Of a DNA stretch of 64,000 nucleotides, positions 53,110 through 59,345 are shown one piece after another. A model generated the notes under the pieces. It had not been told where the DNA came from and made no database searches. It was given only the letters and a program-made list of their open reading frames with translations. This DNA is from Chitinophagaceae bacterium (GTDB lineage: Bacteria; Bacteroidota; Bacteroidia; Chitinophagales; Chitinophagaceae), in contig JANINS010000003.1 in the NCBI GenBank assembly GCA_024508725.1, positions 1,178,001 through 1,242,000 of the forward strand. The letters are read 5' to 3'. The stretch's first letter is position 1. Each line of letters begins with the position of its first letter. The translations under genes and the position numbers were made by a program.

Positions 53110-54174
53110 TTAGCTGAACATCTTTACGATGTAGTAAATAATGGCAGCCATTATTGCAGAGATAGGAATGGTTAATACCCAGGCCCATAAAAGATTTACG
53201 GTAACTCCCCAACGTACAGCTGATAAACGTTTGGTAGCTCCTACACCAATGATAGAACCTGATATAGTATGTGTAGTACTCACCGGAATTCCTAAATGTT
53301 CTGTAAGATAAAGAGTGATAGCACCTGCAGTTTCTGCACTTACACCTTCGAGTGGTGTTACTTTAGTGATACGTGTACCCATCGTTTTAACGATCTTCCA
53401 TCCACCACTCAATGTTCCGATGCCTATACATAAAAAGCTGGTGAAAGGCACCCACCAATAATCTTCTACGAAATGACCGAAACGGGCTTTTGATTCGAGT
53501 GTTGTGTATGCCGGGTTTCCTGTTTGCATTTCATAATAGATCACTGCAGCACCAATGATACCCATTACTTTTTGGGCATCGTTACCACCATGGCCAAGAC
53601 TGAAAGCAGCAGAAGATGCCAGCTGCATTTTTTTAAACCAACTGTCTGCTTTGTACGGGTTCGATCGTTTAAAAAGATGTATGATGAGTATTGTAATGAA
53701 AAAAGCGATGAACATTCCTAGTAATGGTGCAAGAAAGATGAACAGGAATGTTGGGATCACTTTTGCATAATTGATCACATCGATGCCATTTTCTGATAAA
53801 CCTCCGGCGTGTGCCAAAGCTGCACCCATAAAACCACCAAGCAATGTGTGGGATGAACTTGAAGGAATACCAAACCACCATGTAAGAAGATTCCAGATAA
53901 TCGCTGCGATCAGTCCCGCAAGAATCACTTCTAAAGTGATATAGTTCTCATGAACTGATTTTGCGATAGTGTTACCGATCTTGAATTCTCCGATCCAGTA
54001 TTTTGAAATGAAATAAGCGGCGAAATTGAATACTGCAGCCCAGAGTACTGCCTGGAAAGGTGTAAGTACTTTGGTAGAAACGATTGTTGCTATTGAGTTT
54101 GCTGCATCGTGAAAGCCGTTGATATAATCGAAGATCAATGCAAGTACGATGATTACGATAAGCAGTGTGAACAT
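53110..54174 (-). CDS. Inorganic phosphate transporter, Pit family
   Basis: A 354-residue membrane protein. The two inverted PD001131-type signatures are present: DYINGFHDAANSIATIVSTKVL (about 16-37) and SLGHGGNDAQKVMGIIGAA (about 192-210), followed by TTHTISGSIIGVGATKRLSAVRWG near the C-terminus. About ten membrane spans are seen. It takes up phosphate with a metal cation, driven by the proton gradient. The DUF47 gene lies 52 bases upstream on the same strand, the usual partner pair. Confidence 0.92.
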   Translation of the reverse strand: MFTLLIVIIVLALIFDYINGFHDAANSIATIVSTKVLTPFQAVLWAAVFNFAAYFISKYWIGEFKIGNTIAKSVHENYITLEVILAGLIAAIIWNLLTWWFGIPSSSSHTLLGGFMGAALAHAGGLSENGIDVINYAKVIPTFLFIFLAPLLGMFIAFFITILIIHLFKRSNPYKADSWFKKMQLASSAAFSLGHGGNDAQKVMGIIGAAVIYYEMQTGNPAYTTLESKARFGHFVEDYWWVPFTSFLCIGIGTLSGGWKIVKTMGTRITKVTPLEGVSAETAGAITLYLTEHLGIPVSTTHTISGSIIGVGATKRLSAVRWGVTVNLLWAWVLTIPISAIMAAIIYYIVKMFS

Positions 54175-54226: not shown

Positions 54227-54874
54227 TTAAGAGTATTTGATGATGATTGATTCGATCACATTAGCTGCGTCTTCACATTTATCAGTGGCGATCTCCATCA
54301 CCTGGTAGATCTCTCTTTTTTTGATCACCTCTTTGGCGTCGTTCTCTTGTTGAAACAACATGTCGATGCTCATATCAAATACATCATCTGCCTGGTTTTC
54401 GATACTGTTTACTTTTACCAGGGCTTCGGTCATCTGGCGGAGATTCTTCATGTCTCTCAAGCCATGAACAGCGATCCTGATCTCGCTTGAACCGTAAGAA
54501 ATAAGATCTGCCAGTTTTTTGATCCCTGTATCATTAGGATTTACCTTGTAAAAGTTGATCTTCTTAGAGCAGGCGAAAATATAATCTGCAATATCGTCTA
54601 ATGCCGATGCCAGGTAGTGAATGTCTTCCCTGTCGAAAGGTGTGATAAAATTTCTGCCAAGCTCTGTAAATATCTGGTGTGTACTGTCGTCGTTCTTATG
54701 CTCCAGATCTTCTATCTGTGCGATGTAAGCAGAACGTTTGTCGTAGTCAGGTTCGTTTACCATTGCCACTAAGATCTTACCCATCTGCTCTACCCTGTCG
54801 GCAACATCTTCAAACAAGCCGTAAAAGATCTTATTCTTTGGCATGAACAGCTTGCCGATGGAATTGATACCCAT
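54227..54874 (-). CDS. DUF47 family (PhoU-like) protein, Pit accessory
   Basis: A 215-residue helical protein, TIGR00153/DUF47. DRVEQMGKILVAM..., DLEHKNDDSTHQIFTELGRNFITPFDREDIHYLASALDDIADYIF and FDMSIDMLFQQENDAKEVIKKREIYQVMEIATDKCEDAANVIESI match the PhoU-like metal-binding helical bundles. The acidic motif near DREDIHYLASALDDI is typical. DUF47 proteins are thought to regulate the neighbouring Pit transporter. It is the first gene of the Pit operon and diverges from a TonB receptor gene with an operator-like repeat array between them. Confidence 0.9.
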   Translation of the reverse strand: MGINSIGKLFMPKNKIFYGLFEDVADRVEQMGKILVAMVNEPDYDKRSAYIAQIEDLEHKNDDSTHQIFTELGRNFITPFDREDIHYLASALDDIADYIFACSKKINFYKVNPNDTGIKKLADLISYGSSEIRIAVHGLRDMKNLRQMTEALVKVNSIENQADDVFDMSIDMLFQQENDAKEVIKKREIYQVMEIATDKCEDAANVIESIIIKYS

Positions 54875-54903: not shown

Positions 54904-54939
54904 AATATATGACGACTAAAGCCTGAACGTACTCTATAA

Positions 54940-54956
54940 TTAATAATAAGATAACA
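54940..54956. promoter_or_regulatory. Two further 11-bp-phased TAAYA units
   Basis: TTAATA (54940-54945) and ATAACA (54951-54956) start 11 bp apart. They are nearer the DUF47 start and are not in phase with the main array. Confidence 0.35.
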
Positions 54957-54990
54957 TTGGCTCAAAAAGTACACCGAAAGCTTGTAAGAG

Positions 54991-55029
54991 TTAACACCGA
55001 GGTAATACTGCCATAACAATTCCGTAATA
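54991..55029 (+). promoter_or_regulatory. Operator-like array: four TAAYA motifs at exact 11-bp spacing
   Basis: TTAACA (54991), GTAATA (55002), ATAACA (55013) and GTAATA (55024) start exactly 11 bp apart. CTGATA at 55035 is a weaker fifth unit. An 11-bp period of TTAACA-like units is the form of PhoP/PhoB boxes in Bacillus and cyanobacteria (known), and fits OmpR/PhoB-type regulators bound on one face of the helix. It lies just upstream of a near-match -7 box (TAGTTTCG, 55039-55046) for the TonB receptor gene, where a class II activator would bind. Pho control is inferred from the adjacent phosphate genes. Confidence 0.55.
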
Positions 55030-55063
55030 TGAGCCTGATAGTTTCGCCGCTAAATAACAGGCT

Positions 55064-57856
55064 GTGAAACTGATCACTTATTTACTTCTGCTGCTCTCAT
55101 TTACATCTGATTCTGTTTTTGCGCAAACACAAGGAAAAATATCCGGTAAGATCATCAACGAAAAGAATGAACCGGTTTCGGGAGCTGCCATAAGCATAAA
55201 AGCTGGTACCAAAGGGTCGACATCTGGTGTTGATGGCAGTTTTATCCTGTCTTTACCAGCAGGCAAGTACGAGATCACTATTAAGGCATTGGGATATGCT
55301 ACAAAAGTGATCGGAGATGTGGAAGTAACAGTGAACAGTGTAACAGATCTGAATATTGTACTGCAATCGAGCAGTAAAGATCTTGACAATGTAACCGTTG
55401 AAAGCAGATCGTCAGGCAGAAGGGAAACTGTGAATACTGCTATTGCTTACCAGCGCAATACCAATACTGTTGCTTCGGTGGTTTCAGCAGAAGCCATTCG
55501 CCGTTCACCAGACAGGAATACCAGTGAAGTTTTAAAACGTACTCCGGGTGCCAGTGTACAGGAAGGAAGATTCCTGATCATTCGTGGATTGGCCGATCGT
55601 TATAACCAGGCAATGCTGAATGGTATTATGCTTACCAGCACTGAAGCAGACCGTAAAACATTCTCTTTCGATCTTATTCCTGCACCAATGATCGATAATA
55701 TCGTGATCAACAAAGCCTTTGTTCCTGAATATCCCGGGGAATGGGCTGGAGGTCTTGTACAGGTGAATACAAAAGATATTCCTGCCAAAGCATTTTTAAA
55801 TATCCAGATCGGTACCGGCTTCAACACACAAACCACCGGCAGAAACTTCCTGAAAGAACAGCAAGCCGGTAAATGGGATTGGCTGGGAATTGATGATGGA
55901 ACACGAGCACTACCTACTGCTTACACAACTAAAAGTGGTTTCGATACATTGAATAGTGTTTTAAAAACTGCAATTGGTAAACAACTCCGCAATTCATGGT
56001 CTGCTAAAAACAGTACTGCTGCACCCAATATTTCTTTCCAGGCAAATGGAGGTTTCAATACAAAGTTCTTTGGTAAAACACTGGGCGGAACGTTTGGATT
56101 GATCTACAACAGGAACAACCGTTACATCAAACAAGGCAATATCTCTAACTCGCTTTCAGGAACAACTTTCAGCCAGAATTATAACCTGGAAGATGACAGA
56201 TATGTGCAAGACATTAATTGGGGTGCCTTAGGTAGCTTATCGTACCAGATCGATCAGCGAAATAAAGTTTCTGTAAAGACTTTGATGAATGTGAGTGCTC
56301 CCAACTCAGTAGTAGCACGTGAGGGTGTTGATTATAATCGTGATGAACTGGTAAAAGGGAATGAATTTGCATTCAAACAAACCATCTTCAACAGCACGCA
56401 GATCGCAGGAGATCACAAGCTGGATAACAATCTTTCTTTTAAATGGTACGGATCATTCAACATACTTGATGTATATGTGCCTGATCAGCGAAGAATACTT
56501 TATTCCACTCAAAGAAACACCAGCAATCCATATCTGTTGCTGATATCAAATACACTTTCTCAACAAAGCGGAAGCAGGATATTCCAGGATTTGAGTGATT
56601 ATATCTATACAGCAGGTGGTGATCTTACTTACAACTTCAACATGTTTAAATTAAAACAATCAGTGAAAGCTGGTTACATGTTACAGGTGAAAGACAGGTT
56701 GTACGATGCAAAGCTTTTCGCTAATTACCTGCCATCAGATAATGCAACGTTAAGACAGTTATCGCCTGATGTAATATTCGATCCATCCAACTTTGGTAAT
56801 GGAGAACATAACAGTAATTTATTTGCTTTCGATGCCATCAAGGGTACCAACTTCAGGTATATGGCCAATACGATCCTTAATGCAGGATTTCTTCAACTCG
56901 ATAATCAGTTCACAAGGAACCTGAGAGTTGTTTGGGGATTACGGGTAGAAGATTATGATCAGTTGGTAGGAAGCGTAAAGACCTGGGATCCTCGTCATAC
57001 ACACATTATCGTAAGAGATTACCTGCCTGGATTGAATGCAACGTATAAGCTGAATAAGACAACCAACATCAGGCTCTCAGGTTCACAAACAGTGATCCGT
57101 CCTGAGTTAAGAGAATTATCATACCTAAACCTTTATGATTTTGAATTGAATGCTTCTGTACAGGGCAAGCCAACACTCGAGCGAACGAAAGTTACCAACC
57201 TTGATCTGCGTTATGAGTTGTATCCACAGGCAGGTGAGATGTTGACTGTTGGTATTTTTTATAAGTACTTCAATAAACCGATCGAACAGATCTTTAATGA
57301 AGGCAGTGGTGGAGCAAGTACATTCAGCTTCCAGAATCCTGAGAAAGCAACTGCTTACGGCGCAGAGATCGAGTTTAGGAAAAAGCTTGATTTCATCCAC
57401 CTGAAGCACTTCACTTTACAAGCGAATGGTTCTTATATGAAGAGCCGCATCACCGATAAAGGATTGAAGGTTGACAGGCCATTGCAAGGTCAATCACCTT
57501 ACCTGCTGAATATTGGTTTGATGTACGACTTACCTAAACATGGTTTTACTGCAACTGTACTCTTTAACCAGGCCGGCGAAAGGATCTACCTCGTAGGAGA
57601 TATCACAGCAGGTGCAGGGTCACCGGATATTTACGAAGCACCAAGACCTGTACTGGATCTTCAGCTAAGCAAGAAAGTGATTAAAGATCGTGGTGAGTTC
57701 AGGCTCAATGTTTCAGACATACTTAACCAGACGCAGTATTTCTACCAGAATGCAGATGATAAAACAGCTTTCCAGAAATCATCTGACGCATATCGGTTCA
57801 CTCGCAAGTTCGGAACAACAGTCAGCCTCACATTCAACTATGCTTTCATAAAATAA
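55064..57856 (+). CDS. TonB-dependent outer-membrane receptor next to Pit-DUF47
   Basis: A 930-residue receptor starting at a GTG (MKLITYLLLLLSFTSDSVFAQ is the signal). A carboxypeptidase-like domain follows (GKISGKIINEKNEPVSGAAISI, about 24-105). The plug region has VVSAEAIRRSPDRNTSEVLKRTPGASVQ and FLIIRGLADRYNQAMLNG. The barrel is long and ends in SLTFNYAFIK. It stands first in a pair with a beta-helix lipoprotein, 34 bases apart. The substrate is unknown; divergence from phosphate-transport genes and the 11-bp array suggest a phosphate or phospho-compound ligand (inferred). The GTG is the only start near the signal peptide. Confidence 0.88.
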   Translation: MKLITYLLLLLSFTSDSVFAQTQGKISGKIINEKNEPVSGAAISIKAGTKGSTSGVDGSFILSLPAGKYEITIKALGYATKVIGDVEVTVNSVTDLNIVLQSSSKDLDNVTVESRSSGRRETVNTAIAYQRNTNTVASVVSAEAIRRSPDRNTSEVLKRTPGASVQEGRFLIIRGLADRYNQAMLNGIMLTSTEADRKTFSFDLIPAPMIDNIVINKAFVPEYPGEWAGGLVQVNTKDIPAKAFLNIQIGTGFNTQTTGRNFLKEQQAGKWDWLGIDDGTRALPTAYTTKSGFDTLNSVLKTAIGKQLRNSWSAKNSTAAPNISFQANGGFNTKFFGKTLGGTFGLIYNRNNRYIKQGNISNSLSGTTFSQNYNLEDDRYVQDINWGALGSLSYQIDQRNKVSVKTLMNVSAPNSVVAREGVDYNRDELVKGNEFAFKQTIFNSTQIAGDHKLDNNLSFKWYGSFNILDVYVPDQRRILYSTQRNTSNPYLLLISNTLSQQSGSRIFQDLSDYIYTAGGDLTYNFNMFKLKQSVKAGYMLQVKDRLYDAKLFANYLPSDNATLRQLSPDVIFDPSNFGNGEHNSNLFAFDAIKGTNFRYMANTILNAGFLQLDNQFTRNLRVVWGLRVEDYDQLVGSVKTWDPRHTHIIVRDYLPGLNATYKLNKTTNIRLSGSQTVIRPELRELSYLNLYDFELNASVQGKPTLERTKVTNLDLRYELYPQAGEMLTVGIFYKYFNKPIEQIFNEGSGGASTFSFQNPEKATAYGAEIEFRKKLDFIHLKHFTLQANGSYMKSRITDKGLKVDRPLQGQSPYLLNIGLMYDLPKHGFTATVLFNQAGERIYLVGDITAGAGSPDIYEAPRPVLDLQLSKKVIKDRGEFRLNVSDILNQTQYFYQNADDKTAFQKSSDAYRFTRKFGTTVSLTFNYAFIK

Positions 57857-57890: not shown

Positions 57891-59345
57891 ATGAAAAAGC
57901 TCCTCTTCTTACTTACCTCAGTTGCAGCGTTGGCAAGTGTAAGCTGTAGAAAGATCGAATCAGATGGCCAGGTAGTGATCGTTAACACCGGTGGCGGTTC
58001 ATCTAACTCAGGACAAACCATTACATTGAGTGGACGTATCAATGCAGACACTACATTAAAGAAAGGAAACACTTATATCTTAAAGGGCCTGGTATATATT
58101 GTAGGAAATCATACCATCACGATCGAGCCTGGTGTTACGGTAAAAGGTTCTTTCAGTGGATCTGATGTTGCTGCACTCATCATTACACGTGGTTCTAAGA
58201 TCATGGCGCAAGGCAGTCCTGCTGAGCCAATTGTATTTACTTCTGCTGCACCTAATCCGCAATCGGGTGATTGGGGTGGTATCGTAATATGTGGTAAAGC
58301 ACCGATCAATACATCTGTAAATGGAACAGCAGGTTTGTTCCAGGTAGAAGGTGGAATTGATAATGCAAACGGAGATGGTTTGGCCGGAAGCGGTGATGCT
58401 GTTGCTCCAACACCTGTTCCCAACGATAATTCAGGAGTGTTGAGTTATGTAAGAATTGAGTATGCTGGTTATGCATTTCAGCCCGACAAAGAGATCAACA
58501 GCTTAACGCTGGCTGCTGTTGGTAGCGGAACAACCATCGACCATATACAGGTGATCTATGCAAAAGACGATGCGTATGAGTGGTTTGGCGGAACAGTGAA
58601 TTGTAAATACCTCATCGCTTATAAAACACAGGATGATGATTTCGATACGGATAATGGTTACAGTGGTAAAGTACAGTTTGGTATCATCATTCGTGATTCG
58701 CTGATCGCTGATATCTCTAACTCGGAAGCTTTTGAAAGCGATAACAACGCTTCAGGTACAGCAGTAACGCCTAAGACTTCTGCGATCTTCAGTAATATTA
58801 CTGCGATTGGTCCAAGAGCCACATTAAACAATGCTGGTAATACTTTATTCAGAGGTGCTACGCACATCCGGAGAAATACAGCGATCTCTATCTTCAATTC
58901 GATAATTATGGGTTGGCCAAGAGGTATCGAGATCGATGCAACTACAGGAACTTCTACTGCATTGAATATTGAAGACAGTTCACTGCGTCTCAGGAATATC
59001 ACATTAGCAGGAAACACTGTTAATACAAGATTTTCAGGTACAGCAGGAGCAACGATCAGCAGTGACGCCACCTTCAGTACGTGGTTTACGAATAGTTTTT
59101 ATAACAACGATATTCTTACCAATGCTTCTGATGCAAAACTGATCCAGCCATTCAACTATATAGCTCCGGACCCTACACCTTTTGCAGGAAGCAATGGTAA
59201 CCAGAAGATATTAAGCGGTGGAAGCTTTACCGATGCAAAATTCAATGGCGATACGTTCTTCGATAAAACAGTAACATTCCGTGGCGGAGTAGCACCTGCA
59301 GGTGACCTGGCAAGCTGGTGGAAAGGTTGGACTGCTTGGAAATAA
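57891..59345 (+). CDS. Beta-helix lipoprotein paired with the TonB receptor
   Basis: A 484-residue exported protein. The N-terminus MKKLLFLLTSVAALASVSC ends in a Cys at 19, a relaxed Bacteroidota lipobox (SVSC). After a Gly/Ser-rich linker (NTGGGSSNSG) the sequence is a run of short strands and turns such as ILKGLVYIVGNHTITIEPGVTVKG and NTAISIFNSIIMGWPRGIEID, typical of a right-handed parallel beta-helix. No T9SS C-terminal signal is seen; it ends ASWWKGWTAWK. It is probably a surface-exposed partner of the receptor, like SusD in position but not in fold. Confidence 0.72.
   Translation: MKKLLFLLTSVAALASVSCRKIESDGQVVIVNTGGGSSNSGQTITLSGRINADTTLKKGNTYILKGLVYIVGNHTITIEPGVTVKGSFSGSDVAALIITRGSKIMAQGSPAEPIVFTSAAPNPQSGDWGGIVICGKAPINTSVNGTAGLFQVEGGIDNANGDGLAGSGDAVAPTPVPNDNSGVLSYVRIEYAGYAFQPDKEINSLTLAAVGSGTTIDHIQVIYAKDDAYEWFGGTVNCKYLIAYKTQDDDFDTDNGYSGKVQFGIIIRDSLIADISNSEAFESDNNASGTAVTPKTSAIFSNITAIGPRATLNNAGNTLFRGATHIRRNTAISIFNSIIMGWPRGIEIDATTGTSTALNIEDSSLRLRNITLAGNTVNTRFSGTAGATISSDATFSTWFTNSFYNNDILTNASDAKLIQPFNYIAPDPTPFAGSNGNQKILSGGSFTDAKFNGDTFFDKTVTFRGGVAPAGDLASWWKGWTAWK

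Follow-up and report, generated by a model that had tools for sequence, protein, structure and literature searches.

The intergenic region separating a DUF47-Pit gene pair from the gene of a TonB-dependent receptor in the window, i.e. the whole stretch of 64,000 nucleotides of a Chitinophagaceae genome analysed here, carries an array of four direct units that very probably acts as a PhoB-type Pho box, activating the receptor gene and the beta-helix lipoprotein gene behind it under phosphate starvation. TAAYA words start at 54992, 55003, 55014 and 55025 (TAACA, TAATA, TAACA and TAATA) in exact 11-bp steps, and the hexamers TTAACA, GTAATA, ATAACA and GTAATA of the original prediction were found again at 54991, 55002, 55013 and 55024. 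The complete units, all on the plus strand, are GTTAACACCGA (unit 1, 54990 to 55000), GGTAATACTGC (unit 2, 55001 to 55011), CATAACAATTC (unit 3, 55012 to 55022) and CGTAATATGAG (unit 4, 55023 to 55033), with unit scores of 5.5, 11.3, 9.1 and 8.5 bits, respectively. As had been predicted, the array lies directly upstream of a -7-like promoter box, TAGTTTCG (55039 to 55046, plus strand; compare TAnnTTTG), whose register relative to the last unit matches that of the orthologues. The weak fifth unit that had been placed at 55035 is actually this promoter, TAGTTTCG standing where relatives have TACTTTTG or CCTTTG. A further pair of units proposed at 54940 and 54951 (ATTAATAATAA and GATAACATTGG, 11 bp apart, 54939 to 54960, plus strand) is weak by itself (E 2.8), but since an 11-bp pair of the same kind is found upstream of the main array in four relatives (L031, L032, L038 and L040), it is probably a genuine auxiliary site.

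The receptor gene (55064 to 57856, plus strand) has a GTG start, encodes 930 amino acids with CarbopepD_reg_2, Plug and OMP_b-brl_3 domains and is the first gene of a predicted operon. The second gene (57891 to 59345, plus strand) encodes a lipoprotein of 484 amino acids, whose lipobox Cys19 is invariant in 14 relatives and which is predicted to adopt a right-handed beta-helix fold (pLDDT 79), its best matches being beta-helix proteins (pectate lyase, tailspikes), all distant. Divergently, on the minus strand, lie the genes of the DUF47 (PhoU_div) protein (54227 to 54874) and of the Pit (PHO4) phosphate transporter (53110 to 54174). In F. johnsoniae, a TonB receptor and an IPR011050 lipoprotein adjoin phoBR and are strongly induced by phosphate depletion (PMC8115612), and the receptor of the window has the same Pfam domains as those listed for that receptor. 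The Fjoh_0545/0546 pair is also made up in this way, a pectin-lyase-like lipoprotein coming after a receptor that has Plug, CarbopepD_reg_2 and OMP_b-brl_3 domains, and the pair of the window appears akin to it by matching domains rather than by alignment. The predicted beta-helix would likewise fit the FI/FII lipoproteins of F. johnsoniae. The earlier proposal of a phosphate-linked outer-membrane uptake pair is thus supported by the phosphate-depletion induction of a receptor with the same domains and its lipoprotein (PMC8115612).

Other targets of the array were searched with R1, a sequence model that was built from nine orthologous promoters, with the window held out, and that includes the -7 box. 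Its top match in the window's own genome is the window array (E 0.001). Another match, at C4:139914 (E 0.0065), precedes an operon encoding PusC, PusD and a MetallophosN/C phosphoesterase, and a third, at C4:146391 (E 0.025), precedes a small membrane-protein ORF adjoining the PusCD operon. At L058:18391-18439, an array is followed by a -7-like CTTATTTGC and then by a small predicted membrane protein ORF (starting with MKFIFLFRNNLVWW) beside the PusCD operon. In F. johnsoniae, PusCD and phosphoesterases together are the phosphate-induced set (PMC8115612). The match at C4:134378, weak alone (E 3.3), lies before genes for a PlcP-like phosphoesterase, a glycosyltransferase, a GH1 enzyme and the polyphosphate kinase Ppk; PlcP and a glycosyltransferase form a known phosphate-sparing pair for lipid remodelling (PMC4796936). 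The exact three-unit pattern gives four matches at three places of the 3.88-Mb genome, and its reversed control gives none; one array lies before a calcineurin-like phosphoesterase gene (L002/L006), and the third place (L001), within an AraC-like gene, was taken as chance. No clear phosphate gene was found at the R1 matches C1:11170, C2:96193, C4:242374 and C4:488494. The window's genome has no match for pstC, and its only PF12849 (PstS-like) protein (L045:1402-2319), encoded within a TonB-type gene cluster that lacks an array nearby, was rejected as evidence of a pst operon; Pit may therefore be the main phosphate importer.

Among 60 Chitinophagaceae genomes, R1 found matches in 59, with 62 matches at E <= 1e-4, compared with weak matches in 20 of the 60 genomes and a single match at E <= 1e-4 for the reversed control, R2. 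The genes behind these arrays encode receptors, beta-helix lipoproteins, PlcP (in about 8 genomes), PusC-like proteins, PhoX, Porin_O_P and an enzyme of the phosphodiesterase/sulfatase fold; some arrays precede genes without an obvious phosphate role. It should be noted that R1 was trained on receptor orthologues, so that receptor targets are expected among the top family matches and only the other gene classes are independent. Across the class, pst-bearing genomes gave 15 R1 matches, 5 of them no more than 5 kb from pstC, whereas 0.04 would be expected, and outside the family the motif occurs upstream of pstSCAB operons on the sense strand only. In 20 pst loci picked independently of the motif and scanned at periods 8 to 14, three-unit sites reaching the threshold of 17 bits at period 11 were found in 8 loci, all on the sense strand. 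The sites of these loci number nine at period 11, all sense, and two at period 12, with none at any other period from 8 to 14. The original prediction had set beforehand that a lack of enrichment near phosphate genes would refute it; with models that did not include the window in training, this enrichment was found, for PusC/PusD-phosphoesterase, PlcP, PhoX, Porin_O_P, phosphodiesterase and pst genes. The phosphate-gene targets in the window's own genome, in relatives and in other families of the class argue for a phosphate-starvation operator, as first suggested.

The core of the E. coli PhoB box is TGTCA, compared with TAACA in the arrays described here. The PhoP box of Bacillus subtilis, TTAACA-like and with an 11-bp period, is found at Gram-positive sigma-A promoters and is broadly similar to the present arrays in its TT(A/T)ACA-like core and in its period. 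Direct repeats of 11 nt are the defining feature of a Pho box (PMC4415409). They are found here, as is a location before known phosphate-starvation genes; the arrays also keep a fixed distance to the core promoter, a finding partly biased by R1. Like the arrays, the E. coli PhoB box is built of direct 11-bp units in head-to-tail order a short way upstream of the core promoter, but it usually has two units where the arrays have four to six (PMC4415409). The unit found here most resembles the Pho box of cyanobacterial SphR, in which CTTAACCT occurs at least three times with linkers of 3 bp (PMC1906773). Both share the 11-bp period, at least three tandem units, a location upstream of phosphate genes and a nearly identical core, (C/G)TTAA(C/T)(A/C)T. 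Unlike the SphR box, the arrays belong to a different phylum, have up to six units and a fixed distance to the Bacteroidota -7 box, and include TonB receptors with beta-helix lipoproteins and PusCD among their targets.

In the phylum itself, the Pho regulons of F. johnsoniae and B. fragilis comprise the same gene classes as those found here (PMC8115612, PMC3547664). PhoB of B. fragilis has been found to bind the promoter of pstC, with no site named in the accessible text (PMC3547664), and no description of a binding sequence was found in the accessible text of either paper. Putative Pho boxes have been reported at plcP clusters of marine isolates including Flavobacteria, the accessible text giving no consensus (PMC4796936). 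More generally, no described Pho-box sequence for Bacteroidota was found in the literature searched, which did not extend to subscription papers, so that this absence is no proof. Binding by PhoB, like an extensive phosphate regulon, was already known in Bacteroidota; what the arrays add is a concrete consensus together with the promoter layout. This makes the Pho regulon predictable from sequence across the Chitinophagaceae and, less strongly, across the class, and connects TonB receptors, beta-helix lipoproteins and PusCD systems with phosphorus.

Among the proteins of the genome, L103:5438-6115 matches PhoB best; its DNA-binding domain matches E. coli PhoB structures, and a PhoR-like kinase follows it. 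Both proteins score below curated cut-offs (for the PhoB candidate, 226 bits against an NCBIfam cut-off of 296, and 215 against 270), so that its identity as PhoB, like its binding and activation at the array and the substrate of the receptor, is what we infer. No array was seen at the candidate phoB's own promoter. The operator would consist of consecutive direct half-sites of 11 bp, with the consensus (G/C)(G/T)TAA(C/T)ATTNC, and in head-to-tail order each would bind one DNA-binding domain of a PhoB-type response regulator. Under phosphate shortage, the sensor kinase would phosphorylate PhoB, which would then fill the array along one helix face; as the last unit stands some 9 bp ahead of the -7 box typical of Bacteroidota (TAnnTTTG), RNA polymerase would be recruited to a promoter that has no obvious -33 element. 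The receptor and the beta-helix lipoprotein would thereby be switched on, probably for a phosphorus-containing nutrient, beside Pit-DUF47.

The array could also be bound by another regulator of the OmpR/PhoB family, or by a paralogue sharing the site, that responds to a different envelope or nutrient signal. OmpR-family regulators generally bind tandem repeats of about 10-11 bp, the genome encodes at least seven full-length regulators of the OmpR/PhoB type, and even the best of them falls below the PhoB cut-offs. Against this, the targets found across many genera (pstSCAB, PhoX, PlcP, PusCD, Porin_O_P and Ppk) are those of the phosphate response (PMC8115612), which makes such a regulator improbable and favours PhoB.

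A Pho-type site might instead act mainly on the divergent DUF47-Pit operon, since the array lies in the intergenic region shared by both operons and two orthologous loci (L028 and L030) have opposite-strand sites upstream of DUF47. Orthologous loci were fetched with the receptor protein as query, and nine of them included the upstream region. In these nine loci of other Chitinophagaceae (receptor protein identity 61-67%), the array is found at the same position: between four and six NNTAAYATTNN units follow one another in strict 11-bp steps, and a -7 box of the form TTTGC comes after them. Of 54 held-out units, 52, 47 and 53 have the core letters T, A and A, respectively. Whole arrays were used for the alignment; MAFFT shifted overlapping four-unit windows. 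The gene order Pit-DUF47, receptor and beta-helix lipoprotein is unchanged, apart from an added porin-like gene in between in L028, L030, L033 and L036; that of L028 matches Porin_O_P and those of the other three have upstream sites of their own. In these 4 of 9 orthologues, the array stays with the receptor. Moreover, the distance from the last unit to TTTG is exactly 9 bp in 63 of 93 arrays, a count partly biased by the inclusion of the -7 box in R1. This spacing puts the array where a -33 element would be, similar to E. coli, in which the Pho box is found 10 bp ahead of the -10 box (PMC1906773). By its orientation and its fixed spacing, the array points at the receptor promoter rather than at Pit-DUF47, and a main action on the latter is very unlikely.

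The significance of the array was assessed against shuffled sequences and other periods. The four-unit pattern has a single exact match in the window and, with up to three mismatches, a mean of 0.21 matches per shuffle in 100 dinucleotide shuffles. Scored with a unit matrix trained on units of other species only, the window array reaches 34.4 bits, compared with 15.1 for the best of 60 shuffled windows, and the same scan found no four-unit site of at least 18 bits at periods 8-10 or 12-15. TAAYA patterns with three mismatches were dropped as too loose (20 matches in the genome versus 13 for the reversed pattern). Position, shuffles and off-period controls thus confirm the four TAAYA units at exact 11-bp spacing. 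TAAYA words might line up by chance in A+T-rich DNA between genes, the core word being short and common, but this is extremely improbable given a score out of reach of shuffles, the conservation of the array at the orthologous position in nine loci, nearly empty off-period controls and a reversed model that finds little.

Arrays were also found upstream of dnaB, which encodes the replicative helicase (L031:14203-14246; L124:2215-2258; L224-L247). In 30 Chitinophagaceae dnaB loci, chosen blind to the motif and one per genus, 12 have an array, always on the sense strand and only at period 11, compared with a mean of 0.01 loci in shuffles; the window genome's own dnaB has none. R3, a model built only from dnaB arrays, gives a single match in the window's genome, the window array (E 7e-5), which independently confirms both arrays as one kind of operator, and a search of 40 genomes turned up the complete layout at dnaB alone. 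In the 14 known cases, the array starts about 13-18 bp downstream of a conserved TATATTCG-like -7 box, a repressor-like layout opposite to that of the receptor. Since bound PhoB would block transcription from this position, phosphate starvation would lower DnaB, and we give even chances to the idea that the Pho-box array at dnaB also brakes DNA replication in many Chitinophagaceae. The dnaB arrays suggest a link between phosphate starvation and replication; if true, one regulator would lower DnaB while activating scavenging genes.

Between the array and the start codon of the receptor gene, an AGCCTG...CAGGCT inverted repeat and a GTTTC...GAAAC repeat (55035-55070) might form a leader structure. 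Finally, a protein of about 390-440 amino acids with an LWGYxFGDYxxKxHSDS-like motif is encoded directly behind strong arrays (L092:193-1518, L095:298-1479, L109, L115 and L127). It has no Pfam match in the two cases tested (L092 and L095), and the gene of a similar protein (L182) precedes that of PstS.
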